A DNA stretch of 64,000 bases, from contig NSJX01000023.1 in assembly GCA_002286715.1 (NCBI GenBank), forward strand, positions 192,524 to 256,523, in the 5' to 3' direction. The stretch's first letter is position 1; each line of letters starts with the position of its first letter. The position numbers and the translations under genes are program-made. The notes below the pieces were generated by a model that had not been told where the DNA came from, did no database searches, and saw only the letters and a program-made list of their open reading frames with translations. Positions 1-27,010 of the stretch are shown here, in pieces. The stretch comes from Dentipellis sp. KUC8613 (taxonomy: Eukaryota; Basidiomycota; Agaricomycetes; Russulales; Hericiaceae).

Positions 1-503
1 CCAGCCCTTCCATAATCGAAACAAGAGCCAGACTGTTAGAAGAAGGGCCTAGTATAGAGGACCTGATTGCTCCTGTTGCTTAGCTACCTTCACGTTGCAT
101 TCCGGTGATACACAGGTGTTCTCATATTATCATTTGCCTATAATTATCAGTGAAGAAACAAGGATGCCCATCTGGGCAACGTGGACGGCCCAACGAGTGG
201 AGATGTCTGTAGGGTCAGCCAATACACCGGGGCATAGGTAACGAACGCATGAACGGCAATGAGACACAGTTCGGTGGATGTTTCGACTCTTTGAGAACAA
301 GGGGGCGTTCATAACCTCGAATATCTTGTATGGAACAAGATGTTGGTCCAGGACAGTTCGGTATGCATCGGATAGAATTCAAACGTAACATGGCAAGTAG
401 AATCAGGGTGCCATGTACACATGAACTTGGCTGAGGCGAGTGTGGTGAACGTATGAAAGCGAGTGACCTTCGTGACTGGCAGGCGTAGAACCGCGCCACA
501 GCC
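1..503. promoter_or_regulatory. A-type promoter at the left edge (gene A0 off-window)
   Basis: No gene is visible here. The stretch matches the upstream blocks of the minus-strand A genes: AACAAGG motifs at 157-163 and 296-302 have the flanking context of the second and third AACAAGG sites in other A promoters. In A8 and A9 these sites lie about 218 and 372 bp before the ATG, which would put the start of an A0 gene just left of base 1. That gene is inferred, not seen. Confidence 0.55.
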
Positions 504-536
504 AGGTCCCTGGACCTATAGACCAGCTCCGATTGG
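504..536 (+). promoter_or_regulatory. Palindromic element P1 with CCAAT box
   Basis: AGGTCCCTGGACCT at 504-517 is palindromic apart from its two central bases. A third half-site (AGACC) and an inverted CCAAT box (CGATTGG, 530-536) follow. The same arrangement recurs in the divergent promoters of the array (P2-P12). The 300 bp to its right match the upstream region of B genes, so P1 sits between an A-type half on the left and a B-type half on the right. Confidence 0.7.
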
Positions 537-1091
537 CCGGGCCTTCGCCGCGACCGACATGGCCAACTCTTTTCTTGCTCCAAGCGTGTACTCTGCAATT
601 CCTCTGTCTCGATGAGGCCTTTGCTTTCGATACTATCTCTTCTGTCATCATACGAATTCTGCGCGATATTCACCCGCTGAATGGCAAGTTCAAGACGCAG
701 TGCTCGGCTCTGGACCCACACACCCACCGTTGGATCGCCATTGTCCTCACACATCGCCCGACGGCGGGAAATTTGTCTGTTTTTCCGAGACGTAGTGGCT
801 CGAAGGAGATCGAGGAGAATTAGACAGCTGAGCTGCCCGCTCAAGCATGGCTAATAGCTCATTGGTCGGAGATGAAGCAGGAAAGGTCGCTACCGGTGTA
901 AGCACATTGTTCGCAATCTCGTCGATCTTATTTTGCTTCGTCGCCCTATGGCGACTACGCAGCCACACCAATAATTAGCCAGGACGAATGCTCGAAGGTT
1001 TACCACACGAAATCGAAGAGATCCTGCGCAACTGCGTAGCAAACAATGACGACTGCAAGCCACAATATGCATCGAACGTCAGATGGCGACC

Positions 1092-1194
1092 ATGACCGCT
1101 GCTTCAGCAAAAGGTTCATCTGTTTCTTCTACTTACGCTATTCTCTGGCATCCATCCCATTCGTCAACAACACAAGATGATAGTAGCCCTCCAG
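1092..1194 (+). pseudogene. B0: probable remnant of a B gene, exon 1 only
   Basis: A B-type upstream region (540-800) leads to an ATG followed by a Ser/Thr/Pro-rich stretch of 34 codons. It ends in phase 1 before GTCTGT, as exon 1 of the intact B genes does. No exon 2 with the GEIT..EEF repeats follows; the sequence runs straight into the 3' end of A1. I infer that exon 2 was deleted, leaving A1 without a convergent partner. The similarity of exon 1 is weak, so the call rests mainly on position, phase and promoter. Confidence 0.35.
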
Positions 1195-1312
1195 GTCTGT
1201 CTGCTATACAGTGATTTCTTGGCCACCAGTGTATGTATTCGATTAGTAGCACAAGAAATACATCTTTATTCGTAATCGAAACCCGTAGGAATATCGCCCG
1301 TCGTACATAGCT

Positions 1313-2213
1313 CTAAGCTGCAGCTATTTGAGCCCTCAATTGCCGTATCTCCCCTTGCAAATGCGTGAATAGGTTGGCTGTTTGGAAGCCTTCGTCATGG
1401 ATCCGCTGCACGTCCTCGGCTCCCGTGCCGAGAATCATATTCAATACACCATTGGTCTCGTACGCCAATCCGAGGGCGTTCTGGAGGCTCACGGCATGCT
1501 GCCGTGCCCATTCTAGATCGCTTCGCACCTCAGGGATATATTCTATAGCTACAGGAAAGGTTCAGTCACATTATCGAAGGTGCTGAAGAAATTGTAACAC
1601 GCACCCTTCCTCATGACTTCAACCAGACCCGGTCGACTCGATTGCACGCGCCAGTCCTCCGGCAGGACGTTGTTCAGCGCGACCCGGTCGTCTACATCAC
1701 GGTCGCGCTTCCTTTGCGACTTCTCGACCCTCTTTCCCCGGCGTTCTTCATCTGTCAGCGAGCGTTTCAATCTCGGGTTTGACGCCGCCTGGGCAGCCTT
1801 CTGTTCCCGAGTGGGCGCCGCAGCGTAGGTATCACCAGCTTGCCCGCCGCGTGCGGATGTTGAGGGTGCTGGAGCCGAGGACGAGGCAATCGGCATCGGC
1901 GTCGGTTGTCCATACCGTAAAAACGAGGGAGGGACCGGCGGAGGAAATTGCGGATTGTTATGCACGGAGTGTAGCCCGGGGGTTGGATATCCAGGCGGCA
2001 CACCTGACGGCACTATGCCTGATCCTGAAACATGATAACTTCAGACGTTTGCATAGCGGCAGAAAAACTGACAACGTTACCTGAGGCATGCAAAGGCCCG
2101 GCGCCGTGCGATGCGGCATCCAGCTGCGAGCGCGACAGCGAACGCGTGATGACGCGGTCCCGAACGACGCCCTGGCTCCTCTTGCGTGATATCTTGTGCG
2201 ACTTCTGGTGCAT
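1313..2213 (-). CDS. A1: bHLH-zipper-like putative transcription factor, 262 aa
   Basis: Three exons: 2213-2081, 2024-1605 and 1548-1313; both introns are 56 nt in phase 1. Exon 1 is basic (KSHKISRKRSQG). Exon 2 carries a Pro-rich linker, then KRSLTDEERRGKRVEKSQRK and helix 1 ending in ALNNVLPED. Helix 2 is assembled across intron 2 as LVEVMRK-A-IEYIPEVR, followed by a coiled coil ending IRQLRAQIAAA. The frame is open throughout. A TATAAGG box lies about 40 bp before the ATG (complement of 2250-2256). Its expected convergent B partner (B0) appears to be lost. A DNA-binding role is inferred from the fold pattern only. Confidence 0.8.
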
Positions 2214-3313
2214 CGTTCGTTACTGTCCATACCGTGCAGCCCGCTGCGACCTTATAGGATGTTGCCCTGCCATAATCGACACAAGAACAAGAACAGGGAC
2301 AAGGCGGCTCAGAAGTGGAATTCATGAGGACGTATGGCGGCCAATTTCCGTTGTGTAGCTACCTTGACGCTACATTGCAACCAGCAAGCAAGCCCTTTCG
2401 AGGAACTTTGCCGAGCAACGTCGATAGCGAGCGAGCAAGAACAAGGCGGCCCTTCTGGGCGAGTATGATAACACAGTTGGGGGAGATATCTGCAGCGTTG
2501 GCCGACGTACCGGGGCATACCTGACGAAATTGTGAGCCATAGCTTGAGAGCAAGTATAACGCCGACAGATGATTTGAGAACAAGGCGTTCGTGTCCGGAG
2601 CTGAACGTCTTGTACGGAATAAGGGGATTGATACAGACAGGGCGATGATAAATATCGGTTATAGTCCGTCCAAGGCAAGCAAGTCATGAGGTGACATGTA
2701 TCAGAGAGATGAGGGGAAGACGGTAGCTGCCAGCGGTTGGGAGGGGCGCAGGCAAGTGAGCCCCTTCGTCAGGTCCGTGGACCTATGGACCGATGCCCCC
2801 GCTAGGCCGCTCGACCAGCACCTGGCACCTGCTCCCAGCACTCGCCTTCTTCAGCTCTTCAAGGTTACTCTCCTCCTCCGCTTCTTGTGTATTATGAACT
2901 TCGTTCTGCCATGGAAAATAAGCTTTGGGACCTGATATCATTTCTTTCGACCAAAACAGCCTCACTGTCGCGCACTTTCTCGATTCGTACAATCGTAACA
3001 AGAGCGCTGACGTCCTTGTTCTCAAAACATCCGCTGACATTATTAGTCGAGTCGCCCGATAAGCCGGCTGATTCTGCAGATATACCCGCAGTTGGAGATT
3101 CGGAATTGCCACGGGTCCTTGTCCGGCCATCGTCGACATTCCCATGAAGAAAACTTCATTGCAACATAGCATCAGGGGAGCTACGTAGCATGGGTAAGCT
3201 CCCATATCTCCTCTCAAGCTCTATTTATGAATGGCCTCACCCTTGTGTCAGATATGGCAGGATTGCAGCGTATAAGGCTACGATGCACTGCATAGCATGA
3301 ACAACAGCAAGTC
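2214..3313. promoter_or_regulatory. Divergent promoter A1/A2 with palindrome P2
   Basis: P2 (AGGTCCGTGGACCT, 2771-2784) lies 558 bp from the A1 start and 530 bp from the A2 start. The third half-site ATGGACC is present, but the CCAAT box is not. Toward A1, AACAAG-type motifs occur near 2281-2300, 2427-2433 and 2577-2583. Toward A2, their reverse complements occur near 3021-3027 and 3118-3124. A TATAAGG box at 3271-3277 is 43 bp before the A2 ATG. No gene is supported. Confidence 0.65.
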
Positions 3314-4224
3314 ATGCAGCAGAAATCGCACAAAATCACACGCAATGCAAGCCAAGGTATCGTCCGAGACCGTGTCGTGACGCGTTCATATTCGAAGACG
3401 AATGCTTCATCGCCGGGTGCCGGACTCTCGCATGCCTCAGGTATGCCTGTCGATTTGCCTACTGCCACGTCAAAGACTTGATTCATGACTTCGTAGAGTC
3501 AGGCATGACAGACCCCGGCATGCCGCCCAGTTATTTGGCTCCGGGTATGCAGTCAATGCACAATGCTTCGTACTTCCCTCCCTCAACTTCTCACTCGTTT
3601 CCCCATGACGAGCAAGCAGGGCCCGTCACGTCGACTTCGGCGGCGGCGAGTCATGCAATGATACCCACACCGTCCGTGCACAGTGCGATTCTCAATGATG
3701 CCTACCTAGCGATACACGCTCGGGCAGAGAAGGCGGCGCAGGCAGCGTTGTTTATGAGGTCAAAACGCCCATCGACGGATCAGGAGCGCAGGAGGAAGAG
3801 GGCGGATAAGTCGCAGAGGAAGCGTGGCCGGGACGTGGACAACCGTGCTGCTCTGAACAATTTCCTGCCGGAAAGCAAACGAGTGATGTCGGATCCACCG
3901 GGTCTGGTAGAAGTTATAAGGAAGGGTATGTCTCTACGGCATTTCCAGTCCTTGAAGTGGACTGAAGGCCTCGCAGCTACAGAATATATTCCTGAATTAC
4001 GAGGCGACTTGCGCAAGTCACTTGAAAGCATCGATGAGCTCGAAAATGCCCTAGATTTGGCGAACAAGACCAATGAAGCGGTCCGCTTGCTTATGCGCGA
4101 TCATGAAGATGACGATTCAAACTTATTGGATCGCCGTGACAGGGGAAAAATACTTGTCCGCTTGCAGAACGAGATAGGTCGCCTGAATGACAAACTTGCT
4201 ACACGGAGACTTGCCGTTTCGTAG
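3314..4224 (+). CDS. A2: bHLH-zipper-like putative transcription factor, 267 aa
   Basis: Reference member of family A. Exons 3314-3440, 3497-3925 and 3977-4224; introns of 56 and 51 nt, both phase 1. Residues 1-42 are basic and probably nuclear-targeting. Residues 43-130 are a Pro/Ser/Ala-rich linker. Residues 140-154 (RRRKRADKSQRKRGR) are the basic region, 155-167 helix 1 ending in NNFLP, 168-178 the loop, and 179-195 helix 2 (LVEVIRKATEYIPELR). Residues 196-267 are a charged coiled coil. The helix-2 signature resembles that of Max and other bHLH-Zip proteins; helix 1 looks one residue shorter than usual. Convergent with B1, stops 48 bp apart. Nearly identical to A5. Confidence 0.85.
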
Positions 4225-4272
4225 GATCTTCGTTACCTTCGAATACATGTACACTACGTATTTTGCAGTGAA

Positions 4273-4766
4273 TCAATGCCCCCTTGAAGTCTGGTTCCGC
4301 AGAGAGCGTCCCCGGATATGCCTCGTATTTGCCACAAAGATCTCCATATTCCTCTCTATCCCCGGCCCCACCTTCTCCCAATCCTCCTCGCTGTATCCAC
4401 ACTCCCTCGAAAATTCCTCTAGACTCACTTCGCCCGCTTCCGCTCTCTCGCACAGGATTCGGCTGGCCGCCTCCCGTGCCTTCTTACGTTCAAGGCATTC
4501 ACGGGCGATTCGCATGAACTCCTGATGCGTGATCTCGCCTCTGTCCTTGCGATCCAGAGCCGCGAGACAGTCGAGTCTGATCTGACGCATGTCGGCGGCG
4601 TGTTTAGATCTGGGACGGTCGCTACCTGTAACCCGCTTGAGCTCAAACTCTCGAGAGTGAACAAGGCCGGGAACTTACTGCTCTGCGCTGGAAGAGGAGT
4701 TACTTGTGAAGGGCCTGGCTGGGGGCATCTCTGGGAAGCACCCTGCATGTTGTTGACAGAAGACAT
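4273..4766 (-). CDS. B1: small helical protein of the array, 146 aa
   Basis: Exons 4766-4679 and 4625-4273, with a 53-nt GT-AG intron in phase 1. Starts MSSVNNMQGAS, followed by a Pro/Gln-rich leader. Exon 2 has the basic patch RPRSKH, then MRQIRLDCLAALDRKDRG, the first repeat GEITHQEFMRIARECLERKK, a linker helix with LCERAEAG, the second repeat EVSLEEFSRECGYSEEDWEK, and the tail TSRGH. No known domain is recognised; the pairs of GExxxxEF motifs recall SHOCT-like helices but are not a firm match. Convergent with A2 and close in sequence to B4. A TATA-like TTTATG (4821-4826, read on the minus strand) lies about 55 bp upstream. Confidence 0.85.
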
Positions 4767-5822
4767 AGTTCCGAAAAGATAGTTGTCTGCTGCGACCGTG
4801 CTTCACCAGCACGTAGCCTCTTTATGCGCAAGATGTGTGGCTGCATGGAGTATCGTCGATACATACCTACACAATAGGTCGCCTTACAGGTGACCTACGC
4901 AATTGTCTACGCCTCGCAACGTAGTAACAAAGGGTCGCGGCTTTCGGCATCGAGATACACGAACCTCTTTTGTCCTTGAAGGAAGAGACGAATTGAGACT
5001 CCCATAGTCACCTACGAGAACGCACCGGCGTCGTTTTGTGGCTGCGACGTGCCAAAGTGCTTTTGCGAACGACAGCGATAGTGCGACACTTTGGGAGTCC
5101 AAATGAAGCTTGCGTGCGGCAACAGTCATCGGCCACAATGCCTACGCTGGTATCAGGCAGTGGTGATACTTCTTGCAGGCTGCAGGGAAGAAGATATTGG
5201 GATTCCGAGTCTGAGTCGTGCTCGAAGAGAGAAGAGTTTTGGCGGTCGCGGCGAAGGTCCGGCCAATCATGAATGGTCTACAGGTCCAGGGACCTGGCAG
5301 TGGCGCGGCTCGCTCGAAGTCTTGGTGCTGTTACCGTGACATCCATTATTTCTCTTTGCTTTGCTCTAGGGTCTCCACGTATCTCACTTCGCGGACCACG
5401 CACTTCATACCATCGCTCCTATCACTATGCATCCTGCGCACAACTCTTCATCCGCTGTATGCAAACACCAGTCAAATTTTGTCTGGATCCACTTCCCATC
5501 GCGCTATTGTTTTCGAACCCTGCCAGAAGTGTTGGCGACAAATGCAACCTGCCGTACTGTGACAACATCGATGTCTATTCTTTGAGCTGTTGCGAGTAAT
5601 TCTATGACGAAAGTCAGCGCCTCCATGCGGCCAACAGCCTCGACCTACGTAGCTATGCGGCTGCGATGTCCAGACAATAACGATGACCGAGAGCCTCCCA
5701 ATCTATTGTCTTCGTACGCACTGATGTTTCCTCACCCAGCCAAACTTGTTGCTGGAAGCGTATAAGAGACGTGCGCCGGTGAGCAACAAATGCAGGATAC
5801 GATTTTTCGACCCCTCAGACTG
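4767..5822. promoter_or_regulatory. Divergent promoter B1/B2 with palindrome P3
   Basis: P3 (AGGTCCAGGGACCT, 5282-5295) lies almost exactly midway, 516 bp from the B1 ATG and 528 bp from the B2 ATG. Its CCAAT box lies on the left (CCAATC, 5263-5268), so the element is inverted relative to P1. Toward B2 there is CTATTGT (5504-5510) and TATAAG (5761-5766). The B1-side half recurs almost unchanged upstream of B3 and, less closely, B4. No gene is supported. Confidence 0.65.
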
Positions 5823-6315
5823 ATGTCCTCTGCCTTCAACACCCAGAATTCTCCTGTGAGACACCTGCCGGGTTCATCTGTATTGGTGGCCGTCCCAGTC
5901 CCTGCGCTGAATGGCAAGTTACACAAGTTGTTCTTGTTGAAGCTTCCGACTAAAGTAGCTCGTAGATCAACCTCCTCTGTCCAAGCATGGCGCTGCAGTT
6001 CACAAGATCAAGTTGGACTGCCTTGCGGCCCTGGAGCGCCAGGACACAGGGGAGATCTCACATGAGGAGTTCATGCGCATTGCCTATGACTGCTACGATC
6101 ACATGAAAGCACAGAAGGCAGCAACCCGCCTGATGTGCGAGCGGGTGAGGAGGGGAGAAGTAACCTCGGAGGAATTTTCACGGGAATGTGGATACAGTGA
6201 TGAGGATTGGCAGAAGGTACAGCCCGAGGCTGAGCAATATGCTGAAGCTCTCGTGGCAGATGCACGACGCCGTGAAGAGCACGCTCTTCCGAACCGAAGC
6301 TCGAGGGGGCATTGA
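5823..6315 (+). CDS. B2: small helical protein with a GC-AG intron, 146 aa
   Basis: Exons 5823-5913 and 5966-6315. Exon 1 (MSSAFNTQNSPVRHLPGSS...) ends in phase 1 before GCAAGT, where the other B genes have GTAAGT or GTACGT. A GC-AG intron of 52 nt restores the frame into DQPPLSKHGAAVHKIKLDCL, so the non-canonical donor is well supported. Both repeats are present (GEISHEEFMRIAYDC and GEVTSEEFSRECGYSDEDW), and it ends NRSSRGH. It is convergent with the broken A3, stops 42 bp apart, so its partner is probably dead. Confidence 0.8.
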
Positions 6316-6357
6316 TTGACTGCAGAATATGTGCATGTATTCCAGGCTACCAGAATC

Positions 6358-7250
6358 TCACTCAGACATGTCATCCGAATCGACGGTGTTCAGGATAGCA
6401 ATTTGATCCATCAACCGATGTTTCTCGTTCCGCAGACAGGCGAGAAGGTCAGTCGCGACAACCTCCTTCCTCTGTGGTCCTTCGTTTCGAGTGCTCAAGA
6501 TCACACAGACTGCTCTATTGGTCTCGTCTGCCAGATTCAATGCATTCTCAAGATCATCGATCTATTGGTGTGCCTGCTGCAGATCCCGTCGTACTTCCGG
6601 GATGTATTCTATGGCTGCAACAGATGTTTAAAGCATCTACCAAGGATCCCGGTGAGAGACATACCTTTCCTGATAACTTCGACCTGACCGGGTGGGTTCG
6701 ACAGAGCTCGTCTGTCTTCAGGGAGGACACTGTTCAAAGCGACTCTGTCGTCGACGTCTCTGTTCCGCTTGTTCTGCGCCTTCACTGCCATCTTCCTCTT
6801 GCGTTCGTCCTCCGCCATCTGCTGCCTCGCCTTCGGTGATAAGATCGCCTCGGCAGCTTTCTGCGCACGCGAGTGCAACGCGGCGTAGTCGCTCCCAGCC
6901 AGCCTGTCACGAGCAGATATCGAGAGGGTTGTTGCAGAAGACGACGCAGTTGGTTGTCCGTACTGGGGCAAAGACGAAGGGCCCGGGGCCGTCGGACAAA
7001 AGTGCAAATGACCTTGCACCGAGTGCACATTGGACGTTGAATAGCCCCCGGCGGGTTCTGTGCTGGGTCCTACGACAGCATGATACACTCAGTCACCTCT
7101 AGGGCAGGGGAGGAAATGATGACGGTACCTGGCGCACGCGAAGGTCCAGCGTCGTGCGACGCGAGATCTGACTGCGAGTGCGAGCGCGTAACGACACGTT
7201 CTCGAGCAACACTTTGACGAGCGCGCTACCTTGTGCGACTTATGTTGCAT
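6358..7250 (-). pseudogene. A3: broken bHLH-zipper-like gene
   Basis: All three exons can be traced: about 7250-7129, 7073-6655 and 6608-6358. Exon 1 is 122 nt instead of 127 because of a 5-bp deletion after MQHKSHKVARSS, which puts exon 2 out of frame; no in-frame upstream ATG rescues it. Exon 3 also has an in-frame TAG (6564-6562) a few codons after the helix-2 signature. Exon 2 is still open and carries KAQNKRNRDVDDRVALNSV and QVEVIRK. Closest to A6. Two independent lesions make a functional full-length product unlikely. Confidence 0.8.
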
Positions 7251-7864: not shown

Positions 7865-8357
7865 TCATTGACCTGTTGAGCTCCGAGTATGCAACGAGTG
7901 TGCACGTGCGCACTTTGTGTTCGCTACAACAGCTTCAGCACGCTTCTCAAGGCGCGGCCGAACCTTCTCCCAATCCTCATCATCATATCCAACTTCCCTT
8001 GAAAATTCCTCCAAACTCACGTCACCCCCTCTTACTCGCTCGCACATCACCCGCCACTTCGCTTGCTGGGCTTTTTTGCGATCAAGGCAATTATGAGCGA
8101 TATGCATAAACTCCTCGTGCGTGATCTCGCCACTTTTTTGACGATTATAAGCTGCGACAGTGTCGAGTCTGATCTGATGCATTGCGATCTGGTGTTTAGA
8201 ACGGGGACGGCCGTTATCTGCGATTCATTCAGATTCCTTCAAAGGCGGATGACATAGGCAACTTACTCTTCTGTGCTGGGGGAGGAATTACTTTGGTCGA
8301 AGGGCCTGGCTGAGGGATGCTCTTGAAAGCACTCTCCGCGTTGCTGACAGAAGACAT
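7865..8357 (-). CDS. B3: small helical protein, 147 aa
   Basis: Exons 8357-8267 and 8217-7865 with a 49-nt GT-AG intron in phase 1. Leader MSSVSNAESAFKSIPQPGPS; exon 2 starts NNGRPRSKHQIAMHQIRLD. Repeats are GEITHEEFMHIAHNCLDRKK and GDVSLEEFSREVGYDDEDW. The tail ends RSSTGQ rather than the usual RGH. Its convergent A partner has been deleted down to the A4 stub, yet its own reading frame is intact. The promoter is close in sequence to that of B1, so its expression could be retained. Confidence 0.8.
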
Positions 8358-8934
8358 AGTTCCGAAAAGATAGTTGCCTGCTGCGACCGTGCTTCACCGG
8401 CACGTAGCCTTTTTATGCGCAAGATGTGTGGCTGCATGGAGTATCGTCAATACATAACTACACAATAGGTCGCCTTGCAGGTGACCTATGCAATTGTCTG
8501 CACCTCGCAACGTAGTAATACAGGTTGCGACTTTCGGCATAGAAATGCATGGGCCTCTTTTATCCTTGGAGGCAGATGCAGATTGAGACTCGCATAGTCA
8601 TTTACGAGAAAGCACTGGCGTTGTTGTGTGGTTGCGACGAGCCAAAGTGTTTTTGCGAACTTCTGGCAGAGTTCGAAGACAACAGCGATAGTGCGACACT
8701 TTGGGAGTCCAGATAAAGCTTGCGTGCAGCGGGAGTCATCGGCCACAATACCTACGCTGGTATCAGGCAGTGGTGCTACTTCTTGCAGGCTGCAGGGAAG
8801 ATATTGGGGTTCCGAGTCTGGGTCGTGCTCGAAGAGACTCAGAGAAGAGTTCTGGCAGGGAAGGTCCGGCCAATCGATATCATAAATGGTCTACAGGTCC
8901 AAGGACCTGGCGATGGCGCGGCTCGCTCGAAGTC
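8358..8934 (-). promoter_or_regulatory. B3 promoter with palindrome P5
   Basis: P5 (AGGTCCAAGGACCT, 8895-8908) lies 538 bp before the B3 ATG. Its CCAAT box is on the left (CCAATC near 8870), the orientation seen in P3. The block 8358-8930 parallels 4767-5330 upstream of B1, including a GCGATAGTGCGACACTTTGG stretch. The MITE begins 30 bp beyond the palindrome. Confidence 0.6.
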
Positions 8935-10061: not shown

Positions 10062-10959
10062 ATGCAGCAGAAATCACACAAAATCACACGCAATGCAAGC
10101 CAAGGTATCGTCCGAGACCGTGTCGTGACGCGTTCATATTCAAAGACGAATGCTTCATCGCCGGGTGCCGGACTCTCGCATGCCTCAGGTATGCCGGTCG
10201 ATTTGCCTACTGCCACGTCAAAGGCTTGATTCACGACTTCGTAGAATCAGGCATGGCAGCCCCCAGCATGCCGCCCAGTTATTTGGCTCTGGGAATGCAG
10301 TCAATGCACAATGCTTCGTACTTCCCTCCCTCAACTTCTCAGTCGTTTCCCCATGACGAGCAAGCAGGGCCCGTTGCATCGATTTCGGCGGCGGCGGGTC
10401 ATGCGGTGGTACCCCCATCCTCCGTGCAGCGTGCCATCCTCAACGATGCCTACTTAGAGATGCACTCTCGGGCAGAGAAGGCCGCCCAGGCAGCGTTGTT
10501 GCTGAAGCTCAAACGCCCATCGATGGACCAGGAGCGCAGGAGGAAGAGGGCGGGCAAGTCGCAGAGGAAGCGTGACCGGGACGTGGACGACCGGGCTGCT
10601 CTGAACAATGTCCTGCCGGAAAGCAAACGAGTGATGTCGGATCTACCGGGTCTGGTCGAAGTTATAAGGAAAGGTATGTCTGGCATTTCCAGTCCTTGAA
10701 GCCGACTGAATATTTCGCAGTCACAGAGTATATTCCTGAAGCGCGAGGCGAATTGCGCGAGGCACTGGAAAACATTGATGATCTCGAAAATGCCTTGGAC
10801 TTGGCGCACGAAACTAATGCAGCAGTCCGTGAAATTTTCAGTAACAGCGCTAAGCAAGACGATGACGCTCTATCAGGAAAGGTTGCCCGTGAGAGGGCAC
10901 ATCTGCTTACACGCTTGCGGACGGAGATCAAACGATTGAAGGGCAAAGTCACTACGTAG
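10062..10959 (+). CDS. A5: bHLH-zipper-like putative transcription factor, 264 aa
   Basis: Exons 10062-10188, 10245-10673 and 10721-10959; phases identical to A2. Exon 1 encodes almost the same peptide as A2 (MQQKSHKITRNASQG...), and the linker and basic region are nearly identical too (RRRKRAGKSQRKRDRDVDDR). The coiled coil has diverged (ARGELREALENIDDLENALD). With B4 it forms a block duplicated from A2-B1: the A starts are 6748 bp apart and the B starts 6750 bp apart. Convergent with B4, stops 63 bp apart. Intact. Confidence 0.85.
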
Positions 10960-16564: not shown

Positions 16565-17064
16565 ATGTCTTCTGCAAGCAATTCGCCCTCTTCCTCCGAT
16601 GGCCGCGCTGGGGAGTCTTCTGTCTTAGTAGTGGTGCCTGTTCAAGCGCAGAGTGGTACGTACTATATCCTTCTCGACAGTGAGATCTCCAGCTGAACCA
16701 AATTACAGCCAACAGGCTTCCGCTTTCCAAACACGACCATGCGATACACGCGATCAAGCTCGAGTGTCGTGATGCACTCCACCGCATGTGGGATGGCGAA
16801 ATCCCACACGAGGAGTTCATGCGCATAGCCAATGATTGCGTAGAGCGGGCGCAAGCACGAAGGGCCGCTACGAAACTGATGTGCGAACGCGTGCTGAGAG
16901 GCGAAGTCACCTTGGAGGAATTCGATCAGGATTGCGGGTATGACGATGAGGAATGGAACAAGGCGCAGCCGGCGGTGGAGATGTACAAGGAATCTCTCAT
17001 AGCCAACCTCAGGCGCCGTGAGTCTCGAGTTGTTCAGAAGAACCGAAGCTCTGGGGGACATTGA
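16565..17064 (+). CDS. B6: small helical protein, 148 aa
   Basis: Exons 16565-16655 and 16709-17064; 53-nt intron with a GTACGT donor, phase 1. Leader MSSASNSPSSSDGRAGESS. Exon 2 opens ANRLPLSKHDHAIHAIKLEC. Repeats are GEIPHEEFMRIANDCVERAQ and GEVTLEEFDQDCGYDDEEWN, and the tail is RSSGGH. First member of the right-hand direct repeat; the next B genes follow at intervals of 2681, 2700 and 2666 bp. Convergent with the intact A8. Confidence 0.85.
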
Positions 17065-17170: not shown

Positions 17171-18035
17171 TCACTGCTCGGCAAGTCGGGCTCTCAGCCG
17201 TTCTACCTCCTGCTCCAAGAGCAGGATAGCCCTCGCACTCGCGGCATTTCCTTCTTCTGTTTCTGCATCATGGGCCGTGAGCAATGTGGACACGACATCG
17301 CGCGTGGTAGATTGTAGTCGCGCAGCACGTCGGAGATCTTCTACTTCCTGCTGCAGCACTCGTACTTGGTTTCGTACCTCAGGAATATACTCTTCAACTG
17401 CGGGATATATTCAGCATATACACCAGAAACGCCCACGAAGAGAGCCGACATACGTCTCGTATTGAGTTCAACCTGGCCCGGCGAATTGCTGGCACACCGT
17501 CTATCCTCCGGCATGGCATTATTCAATCGAATCCGGGATTCGAGGTCTCTATCTCGCTTCCTCTGCGATTTTTCCGCCTTCCTCTGGCGTATCTCGTCCG
17601 ATAGCTGTCGCTTCAGCTTCGGCAAGGATGCAGATTGCGCGGCCTTCTCTCGTGCCCGAGTGTGTACAGCCGGAGACACATTGGAACCGGACGGCCCGGC
17701 TTCATTGTACGAGGATGAGTGCAAGGTCGTCTCACTCAATGTAGCTCGAGACGAGGTAGCTATTCCAGGATGTTCGTACGATTGGAACGAGGAGGGGCCG
17801 GGTTGAGGTGGATACGCAGGTGGTATGCCTGTAAGCACCGTCCCCGAGCCTGGGGCGAGTGTTGGTGTTAGCTACAAGTGTTTCAAACTGAATCTAGGCT
17901 AACGACAGTACCTGAGGCATTCGACGGTCCGGCCTCCCGTGCCAGAGCATCGAGCTGCGAGTGCGAACGCGTAAACGAGCGAGTACGCACAGGGCTCCGG
18001 CTTCTTCTGCGTCTTGGTTTCTGTGATCTGGACAT
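17171..18035 (-). CDS. A8: bHLH-zipper-like putative transcription factor, 248 aa
   Basis: Exons 18035-17912, 17849-17454 and 17397-17171, phase-1 introns. Exon 1 is rich in Arg/Ser (MSRSQKPRRRRSRSPVRTRS), as in A9-A11. The basic region is RQRKAEKSQRKRDRDLESRI. Intron 2 starts after TR rather than RK and the joined codon gives Leu, so helix 2 reads QVELNTR-L-EEYIPEVR. The coiled coil ends VERLRARLAEQ. Intact; tail to tail with B6, stops 106 bp apart. CCTTATA (minus-strand TATA) is at 18072-18078. Confidence 0.8.
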
Positions 18036-19245
18036 GTTCTGTTGTTGTACATACCATGCCTCCTGCTACGTCCTTATACGAACCAGGTCTGCCATATTGG
18101 AACCCGAGAACAAGACGGTTCAGAAGTAGAAAGCCAGGCGACTTACCTCTGTTGCCTAGCTACCTTGACGCTACATTGCGACCAGGACCAGAGAGGAAGT
18201 TCTCTCGTTATCCTTTGCTTGAGAACGTTGACGACGAACATCGAGCGAGCAAGAACAAGACTTCCCATGTAGGTGACCCCGATAGTCTGAAGCCGATGGC
18301 GGCAATATCTACAATGTTAGCCAGAATGTCGGGAACGAACTCACAAAACCATGCACGCCATTAGACGGAGTAAGTCGTGCCTGCGGTAACGGTGGATGAT
18401 TTGAGAACAAGGGCCGTTCATGCCCTTGAACGCCTTGTGCGGAACAAAGTCACGGTCAACAAAATGCCAACACGAATACAACTGTGCTGTGTGTTTGCTG
18501 TTGGGTCCAAGTAGATACTAGCGGAAAGATGGAGAATGTCAAGTGAAAGACGGTGCGCACAAACATCAAGCTAGGTTGACGAGCAAACGAAGTGAGTGGT
18601 CGCTGCCTAGCTATGGCAGCTATTGCTTTGCAAGTTGCAAGCGCCGTGGGTTGCCGACCTGCCGGGGTGTAGGTCCCTGGACCTATGGACCGGCTCCGAT
18701 TGGTCACCAATCGAATGTCCGCGACTCCGCCACACCCGGCGACATAGCACGACTCTCTAGTGTCAGGTAGCTCCTCCACCAATACGATCTCTATCTCTCT
18801 GACCTCTTTCTCCTCTAATCTATCCCTCCTATCATCGCACGATTTGCGCTCTACATCTACCCGCTGCGAGGCAAATTTGACGGACTCAATCCGAATTCTA
18901 GCCACATCCGGCATGATGGTGTCGCTATTGTCTGCCAACGAGTGACAACAGACACGCCTCTACACGCTGTGGAAACGCGGATGACTTCGTATCTCCAGGC
19001 TGGTTCTGGTGGCCTATACGTCTCTGCATGAAAACAATAGAAGCTCAGTTACTTCTCTGATAGCCACACCTGCAGTCCACGTCACTACAGTGGGATATTC
19101 AAACAATTGCGATGAGCAACTGGCGATAGACTTATTGTCTTGGTACGCGTCAATCTCCCTCGCAGCCACATATATTAGTGGCGACCTATAAGAATCGTGC
19201 AAGTTACGTCGAGCAACAGCAGACTGTCCACCATCCGCTATTCCC
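18036..19245. promoter_or_regulatory. Divergent promoter A8/B7 with palindrome P9
   Basis: P9 (AGGTCCCTGGACCT, 18671-18684) carries ATGGACC and CGATTGG (18698-18704), with a second CCAATCG just after. It is 636 bp from the A8 ATG and 562 bp from the B7 ATG. AACAAG sites at 18109, 18254 and 18406 lie 74, 219 and 371 bp upstream of A8. On the B side there is CTATTGT (18925-18931) and TATAAG (19187-19192). No gene is supported. Confidence 0.65.
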
Positions 19246-19756
19246 ATGTCTTCTGCTGGCGATGATCAGTCCTTTTTGCCTCATGGCCACGCTCAGCCTG
19301 AGGGCAGCCTGACCGTGATTACGGTGCCCGTCCCAGCATCGAGTAGTAAGTCATGAATCCTAACCGTTTTCCAGGTTTTCAGCTTACACATCAACCGCAG
19401 GCAACAAACGTCCGCGCTCCAAGCACGAAATCGCAATGAACAAGATCATGCTAGACTGCGACAGAGCCCTGAAAGCGAAGAGAGCAGGGGAAATCACGCA
19501 CGCAGAATTCATGCAGATCACGAACGACTGTATCAAGCGTGCACAAGCTCGGAAACAGGCTACGCAACTACTATGCGCACGCGCGCGAAGAAACGAAGTC
19601 AGTCTAGAGGAGTTCAACCGGGAGTGTGGCTACAGCGAAGAGGATTGGGAGAAGATGCAGCCGGAATTTGAAAAGGACATGGAAGCTCTTGAGGCCGACG
19701 ACCTGAGGAAACGTCGTGCTCGCCTGGGGCGGAATAAGAACTCGAGAGGGCATTGA
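19246..19756 (+). CDS. B7: small helical protein, 151 aa
   Basis: Exons 19246-19345 and 19401-19756; 55-nt intron, phase 1. Leader MSSAGDDQSFLPHGHAQPEG, nine residues more polar and longer than in the left-hand B genes. Exon 2 opens SNKRPRSKHEIAMNKIMLD. Repeats are GEITHAEFMQITNDCIKRAQ and NEVSLEEFNRECGYSEEDWE. Ends NKNSRGH. Longest intact member. Convergent with A9, stops 56 bp apart. Confidence 0.85.
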
Positions 19757-19812
19757 TACAGTGCTATTTGCTACAATTCTATCTCTCATCTCTAGTGTTC
19801 CAGACAAACCAT

Positions 19813-20751
19813 TCAACCTTGAAGATTCAGTTGAGCTCTAAGTTGACGTATCTCTTCCTGCAGTCTGAGGATGTGGGCACTCGCTTCGATCTCGTTCTTG
19901 ACTCCGTCCGTTGGGCTCCAACCCTGTGTCTGTCCCGTAAATGCACTTACGAGCACGCCAACTGCTCTATTGGTCTCCATCTCTGTCTGAAGCGCTTGTT
20001 GAAGTTCTCCGTTGTGTTGCTGCGATGCTTGCAATTGGCCTCGTACCTCTGGGATATATTCCGTCGCTGTAAAACGATTTCAGTCAATCCTCCAGAACCG
20101 GCGCGTGCACATGCACAAATATATACGACTAACCTCTCCTAACAACCTCCACCAATCCAGGTGGATTTGCAGAGCACCGTCTATCTTCCGGCAGGACATT
20201 ATTCAGATGTACTCGGTCTTCGACATCTCGATTTCGCTTCCTCTGTGCCTTGTCCGCCTTTCTCTGACGCGCCTCATCCGACAGCTGCCTTTTCCACTTC
20301 GGCAAAGACGCGGACTGCGCAGCCTTCTGCATTCGAGTTTGTATTGCCGGATACGTGGTGAGACTAGACGGCCCTGCCTCATTATGCGAGGGTGAGAGCA
20401 GAGTCAGTTCACCCATCGTTTCTGGAGACGAGACGTCCGCAGTCTGCTGTCCATACGAGAGGGAAGATGAAGGGCCTGCTTGAGGTGAAAAAGGCGCATC
20501 GTCCATGGTCTGCATTTCCAAGGTCGGATACCCAGGCAGTGCACCTGAAGGTACCATCCCCGGGCCTACTACGAGTGTTGATATTAGCTATAGGCATTTC
20601 GTGAAGGAAGAAGGCCAACGACAGTACCTGATGCATGCGAGGGACCAGCCTCCTGTGCTAGAGCATCGACCTGCGAGAACGAACGCGTCACAGCACGCTT
20701 CCGCGCAGGGCTCCGGCTCTTCTTGCGTCTCGTTTTTTGTGATCTGGACAT
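19813..20751 (-). CDS. A9: bHLH-zipper-like putative transcription factor, 270 aa
   Basis: Exons 20751-20628, 20568-20134 and 20066-19813. The second intron uses a GTTAGT donor. Basic region RQRKADKAQRKRNRDVEDRV, helix 1 ending HLNNVLPED, helix 2 joined as LVEVVRR-A-TEYIPEVR. The coiled coil has a Gln-rich start (ASQQHNGELQQAL) and ends EEIRQLRAQLNLQG. Intact. Shares exon 1 and linker closely with A10. Confidence 0.85.
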
Positions 20752-21945
20752 GTTCCGTTGTTGTACATACTATGCATCCTGCCACGGCCTTATACGAACC
20801 AGGTCTGCCGTATTGAAAACGAGAACAAGACGGCTCAGAAGTGGAAGGCCAGGCGGCTTAGTTCTGTTGCCTAGCTACCTTGACGCTACATCGCGGCTGG
20901 GACCAGAAAACAGATCCTCTCGTTATCCTATGCTTGAGAACGTCGACGGCGAACATCGAGCAAGCAAAACAAGGCTGCCCATCTGGGTGACCCCGGTAGT
21001 TTGATGGCGGCCATATCTACAACGTTAGCCAAGGCATCGGAGAAGAGCTCACGAAACGATAAGCGCCATGACACAGAGTGAGACTAGGTAAGTCGTGCCT
21101 GCGGTAACGGTGGATGATTCGAGAACAAGGACCGTTTGCGCCCTTGGACGCCTTGTGTGGAACAAAGCCACGGTCAAGAAAATGCCGGCTCAGTTTGCGT
21201 TCCGCCGTAGGTTCGCTGTCGAGTCCAGGTGGATATGCACCAGCACTAATCGAATGAAAAGACAGCGTACACAAGGGTCGAGGATTGACGAGCAAACGAA
21301 GTGAGTGGTCGTTGTCTAGCAGCAGCTATTACTTTGCAAGTTGCAAGCGCCGTAGGCTGCCGACCTGCCGGAGTGTAGGTCCCCGGACCTATGGACTGGC
21401 TCCGATTGGTCACAGAACGAATGTCCGCGACTCCGTCACGACTCTCTGGCGAACGCGCACGTCGTCCTCTGTCAATGTCTCTGTCTCACCGACCTCTCTA
21501 CATTCTGATCCATTTCTCTTATTATAGCACAGTCTGCCCTCGACATCTGCCCGCTGTAGCTACGCGTCAACTTTTACGGACGATTCGAATTCCAGCCCTA
21601 CACGGCATCGTACTGTCGCTATTGTTCTCGTACCCTGCCAACGAGGAGCGATAGACACGCCTTTGTACGCTGTGGAAAAGCAGGTGACCTCATACCTATA
21701 GGCTGGGATTAGTGGTCAATGCGTATCCACTCGGAAGACAAAAGAATGCCTTCCGCTTCTTCGCTGATAGCCATAGTTGCAGTCCACGTAGTGGCTGTCT
21801 GAACAATTGCGATGAGCAGCTGGCGATAGACTTATTGTCTTGGTACGCGTCAATCTTCCTCGCAGCCACAGATACTAGTGGCGGCCTATAAGAATCGTGC
21901 AAGTTACGTCGAGCAACAGCAGACTATCCACCATCCGTCCCTCCT
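20752..21945. promoter_or_regulatory. Divergent promoter A9/B8 with palindrome P10
   Basis: P10 (AGGTCCCCGGACCT, 21377-21390), followed by ATGGACT and an inverted CCAAT box, lies 626 bp from A9 and 556 bp from B8. AACAAG sites start at 20824, 20968 and 21124, i.e. 73, 217 and 373 bp before the A9 ATG. The B side has CTATTGT (21619-21625) and TATAAG (21887-21892). CCTTATA at 20788-20794 is the A9 TATA box. No gene is supported. Confidence 0.65.
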
Positions 21946-22453
21946 ATGACTTCGACTGGCGACAACCAAACCCCTTCGCCTGATGGCCACCCTCAGCCTG
22001 AGGGTAGCTTGACCGTGATTGCAGTGCCCGTCCTGGGGCAGGGCGGTAAGTCATGCGCACCATTCGCCGTCCAGGTTCTCAACTTACATACGGATTATAG
22101 GCAAGAAACGTCCGCTCTCCAAACACACCATCGCGATGAACAAGATCCAATGGGAGTGCGCCGTGGCGTTACAGCGCAGGCAAAAGGGAGAAATTACGAC
22201 CGACCAGTTCTTGGAGATCGCCAATGACTGCACCGGGCGGGCGCGCGCGCGTAAGGCAGCCACCAAATTGCTGTGCGAGCGTGCACAACGGGGCGAAGTC
22301 AGTCTAGAGGAGTTCAATAGGGAATGCGGTTACAGCGAGGAGGACTGGAAGAAGGTACGACCGGGGTTCGAGAAGCTCACAGAGGCCAGGGAGGCCAACT
22401 TGGCGCGTAGTCGCGACCGTGTTACCCAGAGCCGAAACTCGAGGGGCCATTGA
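21946..22453 (+). CDS. B8: small helical protein, 150 aa
   Basis: Exons 21946-22045 and 22101-22453; 55-nt intron, phase 1. Starts MTSTGDNQTPSPDGHPQPEG, the only intact B gene here not beginning MSS. Exon 2 opens GKKRPLSKHTIAMNKIQWEC. Repeats are GEITTDQFLEIANDCTGRAR, where the EEF core has become DQF, and GEVSLEEFNRECGYSEEDWK. Ends RNSRGH. Its stop is only 6 bp from the A10 stop on the other strand, the tightest pair in the array. Confidence 0.85.
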
Positions 22454-22459
22454 TATCAA

Positions 22460-23422
22460 TCAGATAGAATTGCTCTGCTCGATACTATCAGCCACATGAT
22501 GATTTCCAGGAATCTGAGCTCTCAGTTGGCGTATCTCCTCCTGCAAGTAAAGTATATGGTTGCTTGCGATAACTTTCTCGTTGAGACCCTCCGTCCCGTC
22601 CGCGTCCTGCGAATCATCCGTATGAAGTGTGCTTAAAATGATACCAACCGCTTTATTAGTGCAGACTTCGGAATCAAGCGAGCGCTCGAGCTGCTCAATT
22701 CGCTGGTGCGCCCCTTGCAGAGCGCACTGCACCTCAGGAATGTAGATTGTGGCTGTAGGAATCTCTCAGTGGGAATAACAACGTACGTCCGGACATGACG
22801 CACCTCTCTTTATAACCTCTACTAACCCCGGCGGATTTGCGTAGCACCGTCTATCCTCAGGAAGGACACTGTTCAAATTGACCCGGTCTTCAACATCCCG
22901 GTCCCGCTTTCTCTGAGCCTTCTCCGCCCTCCTCTGACGCGCCTCGTTCGACACCTGTCTTTTTAACTTCGGCAATGACGCGGACTGCGCAGCCTTCTGC
23001 GCTCGAGTTTGTATTGCCGGATACGTGGTGAGACTAGACGGCCCTGCCTCATTATGCGATGGTGAGAGCAGGGTCAGTTCACTCATCGTTGCGGGAGATG
23101 AGGCGTCCGCAGTCTGCTGTCCATACGAGAGGGACGAGGAAGGGCCTGCTTGAGGTGAAAAAGGCGCATCGTCCATGGTCTGCATTTCGAAGGTCGGATA
23201 CCCAGGCGGTGCGCCTGAAGATACCGTCCCCGAGCCTATAGCGAGTGCTGATATTAGCTATAGACATTTCCTGGAGGAAAGAATGCTGACGACAGTACCT
23301 GATGCATGCGAGGGACCAGCCTCCTGTGCTAAAGCATCGACCTGCGAGAACGAGCAAGTCACAGCACGCTTCCGCGCAGGGCTCCGACTCTTCTTGCGTC
23401 TCTGTTTCTGCGACCTGGACAT
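22460..23422 (-). CDS. A10: bHLH-zipper-like putative transcription factor, 282 aa
   Basis: Exons 23422-23299, 23235-22804 and 22752-22460. Basic region RQRRAEKAQRKRDRDVEDRV, helix 2 joined as LVEVIKR-A-TIYIPEVQ. The coiled coil is longer than in its siblings: after IRQLRAQIPG it runs on for 16 residues, so the coding region nearly reaches the B8 stop. Longest intact A protein in the window. Intact throughout. Confidence 0.85.
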
Positions 23423-24611
23423 GTTCCGTTGTTGTACATACTATGCATCCTGCTACGGCCTTATACGAACCAGGTCTGCCGTATTGAAATCGAGGACAAG
23501 ACGGTTCAAAAGTAGAAAGTCAATCTGTTGCATAGCTACCTTGACGCTGCGTTACAACCAGGACCAGAAAGCGGGTTCTCTCGCTATCCTAGGTTTGAGA
23601 ACGTTGGCAGCAAACATCGAGCAAGCAAAAACAAAGCTGCCCATCTGGGTGACCCCGGTAGTTTGATGGCGGGCATATCTACAGCGTTAGCCAAGTCGTC
23701 GGAAAAAAGCTCACGAAACGATAGACGCCATGACACAGACTGCGTGCGGTAACGGTGGATCGCCCTTCGAGAACAAGGACCGTTTGCGCCCTCAGGCTTG
23801 AACGCCTTGTGTGGAACAAAGCCACGGTCAAGAAAATGCCGGCTCAGTTTGCGTTCCGCCGTAGGTTCACTGTCGAGTCCAGATGGATATGCAACAGCAC
23901 AAATCGAACGAAAAGACAGCATTCACAGGGATCGAGGATTGACGAGCAAATGAGGTGAGTGGTCGGTGTCTAGCAGCAGCTATTCCTTTGCGAGTTGCAA
24001 GCGCCGTAGGCTGCCGACCTGCCGGAGTGTAGGTCCCCGGACCTATGGACCGGCTCCGATTGGTCACCAATCGAATGTCCGCGACTTCGCCACGTCCGCC
24101 GACCATCCGCACGGCTTTCTGGCAAACACGCAAGTCCTCTCATTACCTTTGTCTCCTCGGCGTCTCTGCGCTCTAAACCATGTCTACTATTGACATTATC
24201 GTACAATTTCTGCTCAACATCTCCCCGCTACGCGTCAAATTTGACGGAATTGATCCGAATTCTAGCCACATCCGGCATCGAGGTGTCACTATTGTCTTCG
24301 TACCCTGCCAACGAGTGGCTCTGCCCACTGTGGAAACGCAGGCGACTTGATAACTATTGGCTGGAAGAGTGGCCAACATATTCCCGCTCGGCAAACAAAA
24401 GACGGCCTACTGTCACTTTTCTAGCCCTATAGTTGCAGTCCACGTAGCGACGCTGCAATCTCCAAACAATTGTGAAGAGCAGCTGGGGATAGACTTATTG
24501 TCTTGGTACGTGTCAGTCTTCCTCGTAGCCACATGTTCCAGTGGCGACTTATAAGACTTGCATAAGGTACGCAGAGCGAGAGTGGCAGACTATCTGCCAT
24601 CCACTATTTCT
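23423..24611. promoter_or_regulatory. Divergent promoter A10/B9 with palindrome P11
   Basis: P11 (AGGTCCCCGGACCT, 24031-24044) with ATGGACC and CGATTGG, then a second CCAATCG, lies 609 bp from A10 and 568 bp from B9. AACAAG-type motifs lie near 23495, 23628 and 23775, with the middle one altered to AACAAAG. On the B side there is CTATTGT (24289-24295) and TATAAG (24550-24555). No gene is supported. Confidence 0.65.
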
Positions 24612-25119
24612 ATGTCTTCTGCTGGCAATTACCAGCCCTCTTCACCCTCTGGCCATGCTCGGCCAGAGGGTGTTTCGACTGTGATCGCAGTGCCCATCCC
24701 GGGGCAACGCGGTAAGTCATGCACACCATTTTCTGAGTAGGATTTTGATATGCATATGAACAACAGATAACGGACGTCCACTCTCCAAGCACGAAATTGC
24801 AATGAAGAGGATCATGCAAGGCTGCTCCAAGGCACTGAAAGCCAAGGAAGCGGGAGAAATCACGCATGACGAGTTCATGGTGATTGCCAATGACTGCATC
24901 GAGCGCGCCCGAGCGCTAAACAGGGCTACGGACTCGCTCAACGAGCAGGCAGAAAGAGGTGAAGTCAGTCTCGAAGATTATAACAGGGAGTGTGGTTACA
25001 CAGACGAGGACCGGGAGAAGCTACAGATAGATATTGAACGAGAGCAAGAATTTCGAGAGGTTCATACAAGGAGGAGTCACGCGAGTTTGCTCCAGAATAA
25101 GAAGTCAAGGGGGCGGTAA
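24612..25119 (+). CDS. B9: small helical protein, 150 aa
   Basis: Exons 24612-24711 and 24767-25119; 55-nt intron, phase 1. Leader MSSAGNYQPSSPSGHARPEG. Exon 2 opens DNGRPLSKHEIAMKRIMQGC. Repeat 1 is GEITHDEFMVIANDCIERAR. The middle helix is the most diverged (DSLNEQAER in place of LLCERARR), and repeat 2 has EDY instead of EEF and EDR instead of EDW. Ends KKSRGR. Intact, but the least conserved B protein, next to the shortened A11 at the array edge. Confidence 0.8.
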
Positions 25120-25254
25120 ACGTCTGCTATTTGTTACACGTCGATGCATTTGAAATGTACCATAAACTACTGCCCGGCATTGTGATCCTCAAGTCGACGG
25201 CCCGTCTGCGGCGTGGAGACTCGCGTGGGCGCTCGCTTGCCGCTGGTCCGCATC

Positions 25255-25951
25255 CTATGTCGCGCTCGAGCCCTGCGTTGGACCGGAGCCGATTCTTTCT
25301 CCAGTAGCCACGCTGAGGAGTATGTCAACTGCTGCCCGAGTTTCTGCTTCAACTGCAAGTCTGCGTTCAAGCTCTTCGTTTCGCTGTAGTGCCGCCTGTA
25401 ACGCACTTTCCACCTCAGGAATGTACTCCGCAGCTATGAACAACATTCAGCAAATGAAATAGAGCCGTCCATGAAAAGAAATCTCGTACCTCTCCTCACA
25501 ACGTCTAAGCCAGGCCTACTCCCCGTAGCTCGTCTGTCTTGCGGCAAAACATTATTCAGCTTCACTCTGTCATCCACGTCTCTGTCTCGCTTCCTCTGCG
25601 CCTTTTCCGCTTCCTTCCTCTTGCGTATCTCATTGGACAGTTCTCGCTTCAGCTTTGGCGTTGCCGCTGCCCAAGCGGCCTTCTCCGCTCGACCATGCGT
25701 CGCCGCATGAGCACTACTAGCCGTCCCGCTATGTGTAGGAGCCGATATAGGGACCGTCTCCGAGTCTGACGGACGTTCAAGTTAGCCAAAAGGAGATTCT
25801 AGTAGGTGTAAGGGCCAGCGACATTACCTAGGGCGTGCGAGGGGCCAGGATCCTGTTCCGAAGAATTGAGCTGCAAGAACGAACGTTTGACTGCGCGCTT
25901 CCGCACAGGGTTCCGGCTCTTCTTGCATCTCTGTTTCTGCGACTTGGACAT
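25255..25951 (-). CDS. A11: shortened bHLH-zipper-like protein, 192 aa
   Basis: Exons 25951-25828, 25765-25490 and 25433-25255; all phases agree. Exon 2 is about 50 codons shorter than in A9 and A10, missing the Pro-rich linker. The coiled coil stops early at a TAG (25257-25255) after IGSGPTQGSSAT. Eroded coding text resembling the usual zipper end continues beyond the stop in another frame. Basic region (RKRKEAEKAQRKRDRDVDDR), helix 1 and helix 2 are complete. It may be a working dimerisation variant or an early stage of decay. Confidence 0.7.
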
Positions 25952-27010
25952 GTTCCGTTCTTGTACATACCATGAATCCCGCTACGGCCTTATACAAGGC
26001 AGGCCTGCGATATCCAACATAAGAACAAGGCAGTGAGAGTGCAGAAGTAAAAGTTAGTACTCAACGGAAGAGGTATATGGCAGTTTAGCTCTGCACCCTG
26101 GCCGCTTTTTCTGAGTTACCTTGGGGCTACATGGAAGCGGGAAGCGAGTGGCAAGACTTTCTCGTTATCCACTGCCTGGGAACGTCGACGGGCGAGCATC
26201 GAGCGAGCAAGGACAAGGTAACCCATCTGGATGCAGACACGGAGGTTCGAACTGGCGGAGATATCTGTTCAATCAGCCACATACTCGGGATATAGCTTAA
26301 GGATATGTGGGCAACGGGTATGGAGAGCGGCAGTGATGTGTGCTCCGTAGACGGATGATTTGAGAACAAGGACCAAACACGCTACATGCTCTTGTTCCCG
26401 GGAAGCATTGTTGCCGGAAATTTAACCCAGATAGTGCTCCGACGCGTGCGAAGAGAGATTCTGTAGGCAGGGAGGACAATGTCGAATTCAGGCAGCGAGC
26501 GAGGTTCTAGTGAAGTTGCAAGATGATAAAGAAGTTCAAGGTCTGGTGGTAAGTAGCACGGCCGACGTAGTCACCATGCCGTCGGTCCCTGGACTGGGCA
26601 CGTGGACCGGCGACTCGGGGAACCGCGGCGTCGGCCGGGCGAGGTTGCATCTTCGAACCCCCATCGTGCAATTTTTCGCGGACCCTCGCAAATGGCATGG
26701 CTTGGTTCCGGAGACAGGAGAAAACAAGTTCTTGGACGGGCTCTAAATCTTTATTTTTGAAGAAGAGAGAAGAGCGTGGCGAAAGGGAAGACTAATAAGA
26801 TACAGTACTAGGTGAACAATAGGAGGTTGCAGAACATGGGAGGTGGTGGTGGAAGGTATACAGATTATAAAATATAACGATGGAGTACAACAAGCAAACG
26901 GACATCATTAAGCAGTGGTAGGATAGACGTAACATACTTTCAGAACTTCGTCATCTAACATGAAGGATCATCAAGAAGTCTGCGAATCAGACATCGTGTC
27001 GAACACGCGT
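25952..27010. other. A11 promoter and right border of the array
   Basis: CCTTATA at 25988-25994 and AACAAGG-type sites near 26023, 26213 and 26363 belong to the A11 promoter. A worn palindrome (CGGTCCCTGGACTG, 26583-26596) with GTGGACC marks the last array element. After about 26640 array similarity stops. From there to the 3' end of the next gene I see only AT-rich 3'-flank sequence and no gene. Confidence 0.5.

Follow-up and report, generated by a model that had tools for sequence, protein, structure and literature searches.

The window analysed here, a stretch of 64,000 nucleotides from the 34.1 Mb assembly of Dentipellis sp. KUC8613 (contig NSJX01000023.1, called C88 below; C88:192524-256523), carries an array of two alternating gene families: A, probably encoding a basic helix-loop-helix (bHLH) zipper-like protein, and B, predicted to encode a small helical protein. 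In GenBank, the proteins identical to those encoded in the window are assigned to Dentipellis sp. KUC8613. At 1.3-26 kb of the window there are ten A loci (A6-A15) and nine B genes, forming eight A-B pairs that all lie tail to tail, with stop-to-stop distances of 6-135 bp in seven of them; in the eighth, whose A8 is broken, the distance is 246 bp. The initial annotation of this DNA is partly confirmed: its two alternating families over about 26 kb, conserved introns, repeated promoters and nine B genes are borne out, while its eleven A loci become ten when recounted. Its rule that genes are always tail to tail within pairs and head to head between them goes too far: the eight pairs of the window are tail to tail, but A6, A11 and B8b are unpaired, and the head-to-head order breaks down for the neighbours A8/B8b and A10/A11.

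A genes have three exons. Exon 1 is Arg/Ser-rich and about 42 codons long, exon 2 encodes a Pro/Ser linker together with the basic region, helix 1 and the first part of helix 2, and exon 3 completes helix 2 and adds the zipper and the C-terminus. B genes consist of two exons, and the C-terminus is SRGH-like in most copies. The spliced models are identical to GenBank proteins for four of 14 A genes (A4, A6, A12, A14) and six of 15 B genes (B7, B10, B12-B15), the others having no equal among the proteins compared. Four of the ten A loci of the window are broken or shortened (A8, A10, A11, A15), and a tblastn search for a B partner of A6 in window 1-1400 gave no E below 0.03.

Table 1. Genes and promoter features of the array (window coordinates)
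Feature	Position	Strand	Remarks
A6	1313..2213	-	intact, three exons (2213-2081, 2024-1605, 1548-1313); identical to GenBank protein P0025
A7	3314..4224	+	partner of B7
B7	4273..4766	-	two exons; identical to GenBank protein P0012
B8	5823..6315	+	GC-AG intron; conserved ATG taken as start (5790 is 33 bases upstream)
A8	6562..7250	-	broken: exon 1 frameshift and early stop in exon 3
B8b	7865..8357	-	B gene without A partner
A9	10062..10959	+	partner of B9
B9	11023..11516	-	
B10	12548..13044	+	identical to GenBank protein P0015
A10	13120..14027	-	partner of B10; exon 2 frameshift
A11	14806..15464	-	degenerate A copy without B
B12	16565..17064	+	identical to GenBank protein P0016
A12	17171..18035	-	partner of B12; identical to GenBank protein P0002
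B13	19246..19756	+	identical to GenBank protein P0013
A13	19813..20751	-	partner of B13
B14	21946..22453	+	stop 6 bp from A14 stop; identical to GenBank protein P0014
A14	22460..23422	-	protein taken for structure model; identical to GenBank protein P0001
B15	24612..25119	+	identical to GenBank protein P0017
A15	25255..25951	-	C-terminus shortened
Array-only motif	505..524	+	at most 2 mismatches
Array-only motif	2772..2791	+	
Array-only motif	5275..5294	-	
Array-only motif	8888..8907	-	
Array-only motif	12050..12069	+	
Array-only motif	14593..14612	+	
Array-only motif	16020..16039	+	
Array-only motif	18672..18691	+	
Array-only motif	21378..21397	+	
Array-only motif	24032..24051	+	
B13 promoter elements	19103..19138	+	ACAATTG (-143), TATTGT (-113)

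The array is larger than first described. Single-protein searches of the genome placed B at C88:163.9-217.6 kb and A at C88:164.6-218.3 kb, with best non-self matches far beyond chance (E 6.4e-44 for the B query, 8.6e-82 for the A query). Instead of beginning at the first base of the window, as had been proposed, it continues leftwards to about C88:163.9 kb with five further pairs and the orphan B3a, an A exon-1-like piece lying immediately left of the window. In total it comprises 13 A-B pairs (1-5, 7-10, 12-15), all 13 convergent, together with the partnerless A6, A11, B3a and B8b. The same layout is repeated on two other contigs, which is new here. C114 carries a very diverged array spread over about 160 kb (C114:7-168 kb), 42 kb of which was available as sequence, and in it each of 13 A-like genes faces a B-like match 116-457 bp away and five of 18 B-like matches lack an A, whereas C100 has one convergent pair and one extra B; these counts are lower bounds, because the searches scored only the best candidates. 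The families of C88 and C114 are barely alike, hhalign giving E 5.8e-7 with probability 92 for B and E 8.5e-5 with probability 60 for A. Moreover, an A-like exon was found on C117 (within 1 kb of sequence).

Regarding protein A, the fold is predicted to be bHLH-zipper-like. The structure model of A14 has a helix at 138-164, a loop and a helix at 179-230, with predicted local distance difference test (pLDDT) blocks of 94-97 over 141-210; in the model the second helix runs as one piece from helix 2 into the leucine zipper. In structural comparison the top four of 37 listed rows were all bHLH proteins (CLOCK/BMAL1 6.2, USF2 6.2, MITF 5.6, MyoD/E47 5.3), and the best PDB profile match was Max (E 0.15), covering helix 2 up to the zipper, with HY5 and SREBP-1A next. 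The a/d positions of the zipper heptads, picked after inspecting the sequences, are hydrophobic in 114 of 145 cases (79%), compared to 116 of 407 (29%) elsewhere. In addition, the relative on C100 covers positions 6-53 of the 53 in the Pfam HLH profile (E 0.0039). Two observations weigh against this reading. None of the 15 A proteins scanned matched the Pfam HLH family (PF00010), and the nearest, the C100 relative, stays below the curated cut-off (17.4 versus 20.7 bits). Moreover, bHLH proteins contact the E-box through H-x3-E-x3-R, and in the rows read of the A alignment the glutamate position is occupied by Ala/Ser (Gln if the register is shifted by one). The proposal of the initial annotation thus stands for the predicted fold and the heptads but falls below the family cut-off, and A is probably a divergent, distant relative of bHLH-zipper proteins.

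B, of about 147 aa, appears to be a small helical protein outside known families. The model, at a mean pLDDT of 74, predicts a hairpin of helices at 41-96, then a short helix and a long one at 113-147, and structure comparison gave no confident relative. Scanned against SHOCT (PF09851), three of five B proteins gave weak matches (best E 0.0095), below the curated cut-off (best 16.1 versus 27 bits among the five).

Over the three loci all 27 A-B pairs are convergent (13 on C88, 13 on C114 and one on C100), and the trees of A and B are correlated: by Mantel test r is 0.51 (p 0.006) for all 15 pairs, 0.79 (p 5e-5) for the 13 pairs without the two most diverged, and 0.72 (p 1e-4) for the 11 pairs of KUC8613. 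Both results support the earlier idea of a factor paired with a small partner. They are also predicted by unit duplication alone, as in ordinary birth-and-death evolution, where one ancestral convergent pair would have been copied many times, its orientation, paired trees and promoters being inherited with no need for A-B interaction, and where mosaic patterns would be chance tracts of gene conversion. Broken or partnerless copies, which such a process would leave, are common (A8, A10, A11, A15, A6, B3a, B8b and the five B-like matches on C114), and the ratio of nonsynonymous to synonymous divergence (dN/dS) is below 1 in every comparison listed. However, adjacency and orientation have been kept although a sequence search with one array hardly recovers the other.

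The most telling result, also new here, is the way in which the units diverge. Among A copies mean identity is 0.67 for the basic region with helix 1, 0.61 for the loop and 0.64 for helix 2, compared to 0.33 for the zipper and 0.14 for the insert behind it. The earlier statement that divergence is concentrated in the dimerisation parts therefore holds for the zipper and its insert, while the basic region with helix 1, the loop and helix 2 are the parts most alike. In both arrays recent duplicates are mosaics, alike around the DNA-binding part, and often in both promoters too, and strongly diverged in the zipper exon and B. Ordered as A promoter, exons 1-2, exon 3, B exon 2, B exon 1 plus intron, and B promoter, the identities of units 7 and 9 are 0.88, 0.92, 0.68, 0.80, 0.87 and 0.91, and those of units 13 and 14 are 0.88, 0.88, 0.58, 0.65, 0.70 and 0.80. 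Of the six segments, A exon 3 shows the lowest identity in seven of the eight close comparisons on C88 (exons 1-2 identity >= 0.66, a limit set afterwards), the B promoter being lowest between units 8 and 10; over all 36 comparisons on C88 the core lies below the arms in 18. Synonymous divergence between A7 and A9 is 0.10 in exon 1, 0.22 in the linker, 0.19 in the bHLH part and 1.08 in the zipper and C-terminus, and between A13 and A14 it is 0.26, 0.17, 2.2 and 2.4, respectively, so that in the latter pair the break falls before the bHLH part.

On C114, the six comparisons of units u56, u95, u121 and u130 have their highest identity (0.95-0.99) near the end of exon 2 that encodes the bHLH part, fall to 0.51-0.55 at exon 3 in five cases (in the closest pair, u121/u130, to 0.77 at exon 3 and 0.70 within B) and climb again upstream of B to 0.78-0.99 in all six. 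Unit u95 is unlike the other three 5' of the bHLH part (about 0.4-0.5), and the more diverged pair u148/u151 has arms of up to 0.79 and 0.88 with a minimum of 0.48 at exon 3. In all six comparisons of the four units, synonymous divergence (dS) is 0.10-0.19 in exon 2, 0.43-1.76 in exon 3 and 0.23-0.98 in B (Fisher p 2e-5 to 2e-25). Since a step at synonymous sites is not easily due to amino-acid constraint, we infer exchange or conversion between units. The length of the alike stretch differs from pair to pair, as chance tracts under birth-and-death would have it; on the other hand, the sharpest drop falls at A exon 3 in both arrays, and in each of the close pairs 7-9 and 13-14 coding exon 3 is less alike than either promoter. 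Birth-and-death alone is somewhat less likely than the module reading preferred below.

The explanation we prefer, tentatively, is that the units are linked, co-inherited modules of two genes, a bHLH-Zip-like factor A and a partner B matched to the variable zipper of its A. With its Arg/Ser-rich N-terminus, divergent bHLH and leucine zipper, A is predicted to be a nuclear, dimerising DNA-binding protein, and B would bind A through the variable zipper or C-terminal part, restraining or redirecting it. The tail-to-tail layout places the zipper exon beside B, so that the specificity part and its matched B would pass on as one block. Recombination or gene conversion among units would meanwhile keep the DNA-binding part alike and, in several pairs, also the promoters and 5' exons of A. 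Such a process would yield factors that share one DNA-binding end but carry many distinct, matched dimerisation or partner codes; the mosaic pattern in recently copied pairs would suit such matched partners. Of this picture, the sequences show the gene structures, the pairing and orientation, the mosaic divergence and the elements common to B promoters; the bHLH-Zip-like fold comes from modelling, and the nuclear location, binding of DNA and of B by A, cognate matching and control of B by A are inferred.

In these modules B may also be regulated by A. Elements common to B promoters, likewise new here, are ACAATTG, found upstream of ten B genes among the 11 examined (15 in total) and in seven of these ten 30 bp before TATTGT, and TATTGT itself; CAATTG occurs in none of the 11 A promoters examined (of 15), and the upstream stretches of B on C114 contain TATTGT in 14 and CAATTG in eight of 15. 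No p-value is attached to these counts because paralogues are not independent. CAATTG is at most a putative target of A, since the usual glutamate is absent from A. A further 20-bp motif, GGTCCCTGGACCTATRGACC, also new here, has 11 matches in the genome (at most 2 mismatches), all 11 in the array and ten in the window, compared to one for the reversed control; judged by position, the distance from the site to a B start downstream of it is 498-580 bp in seven cases.

Protein searches gave matches to A and B only in Dentipellis. Assuming that consecutive gene numbers mean neighbouring genes, the D. fragilis genes EVG20_g6469, 6470, 6471, 6474, 6475, 6476, 6477, 6480 and 6481, which best match B14, A12, B12, A10/A8, A6, A4, an uncertain B, A3 and B3, follow the right-to-left order of the C88 array; therefore the array seems older than the split of KUC8613 and D. 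fragilis. That these searches gave matches in one genus only, together with multicopy, fast-changing pairs and decayed copies, is what a selfish pair of the killer-and-antidote type, kept in multiple mutually non-matching copies, would produce; the predicted fold of A, that of a transcription factor, speaks against it, and we consider it very improbable.

Identity between the D. fragilis proteins and the KUC8613 proteins that match them best is 49-80%, or 47-55% in the case of the uncertain g6477, compared to 86% over 74 aa of one flanking gene. Such divergence, and the mosaic of alike stretches around an old, diverged specificity core, would also be expected of a self/non-self or somatic-incompatibility locus like HD1-HD2, in which matched A and B of one individual are silent and foreign combinations act. 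The likeness to multi-allelic recognition loci drawn in the initial annotation is partly supported: the zipper exon and B diverge between alike neighbouring parts in two arrays, which strengthens the analogy. Several points count against it. STE3 lies on C1 and the homeodomain (HD) and MIP matches together at C95:558-571 kb, so the array shares a contig with neither, one Homeobox_KN match on C88 lying at 37.9 kb, 126 kb from the array; dN/dS is below 1 throughout; and no B was seen in the roughly 1 kb that can be read downstream of an A-like gene on C110. Furthermore, the variation seen is that between copies within one genome and proteins of a second species, rather than between individuals, and no domain of HET or NACHT type was listed when A and B were scanned against Pfam. 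A self/non-self role of this kind is accordingly quite unlikely. The region at C95:558-571 kb contains two MIP-like peptidase genes about 9 kb apart and three homeobox matches, being either a duplication of the MAT-A region or two haplotypes that the assembly has joined.

Concerning its surroundings, the C88 array is interrupted by a stretch of about 12 kb plus two N runs (C88:177927-178866 and 191269-192118), and the reading frames between these runs (C88:178.9-191.1 kb) are presumably Ty3/gypsy-like. Between B8b and A9 lies a 711-bp insert (window 8934-9644) resembling a miniature inverted-repeat transposable element, with 51-bp inverted ends that are 94% complementary. We take reading frames of the left flank to be F-box- and P450-like, and one to the right (window 43958-45121) to be a phytochrome-like sensor; closer by, at window 27.3-27.6 kb, is a reading frame whose D. 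fragilis relative is annotated as a fusion with an A protein (P0007). The C100 pair (C100:70-80 kb) lies between reading frames that presumably encode fungal FunK1-type kinases.

A bolder reading, which we hold to be unlikely, is that the arrays might represent a new class of mushroom recognition system: convergent bHLH-Zip/partner cassettes whose DNA-binding ends are kept interchangeable by recombination and whose hypervariable zipper-plus-partner core gives many matched specificities, for self/non-self or combinatorial control, using other protein families than the mating-type genes. To our knowledge, the genes for most non-sexual recognition in basidiomycetes are unidentified, and a multi-copy locus with a constant DNA-binding part and a dimerisation part travelling with a neighbouring gene has the structure that such a system would need. 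A QTL (quantitative trait locus) mapping study of somatic incompatibility in Heterobasidion is listed among the references of PMC3489678. The array structure yields clear bench predictions, and even if recognition is not involved, it presents a transcription-factor-like family with a regularly linked, uncharacterised partner and mosaic evolution in two arrays.

Compared with known systems, A resembles bHLH-leucine-zipper factors (Max, USF2, MITF, SREBP) in its predicted basic helix, loop and helix 2 continuing into a zipper of regular heptads, and among the entries re-aligned to its predicted structure those of bHLH proteins give the best alignments. It differs from them in lying below the Pfam HLH cut-off, in the absent E-box glutamate, in its extra Arg/Ser-rich first exon, in the pairing of most A genes with B and in a zipper exon that diverges between copies. 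B, with its repeated helix-G-E-[IV]-[TS]-x-x-E-F-helix motif and weak SHOCT matches, recalls the short helical hairpins of SHOCT (PF09851), but it scores below the cut-off, its first exon is separate and it ends in a conserved SRGH-like stretch. The A-B units differ from basidiomycete HD1-HD2 pairs in their protein families, in being convergent rather than divergent, in having the variable part at the C-terminal side and in lying on another contig than HD/MIP, and B has no recognised DNA-binding domain. Nevertheless, as described in PMC8305134, HD1-HD2 pairs also consist of opposed genes, present as several paralogous pairs in some species, in which the dimerisation part that decides partner choice adjoins the DNA-binding part, and this is the arrangement that the A-B units appear to share.
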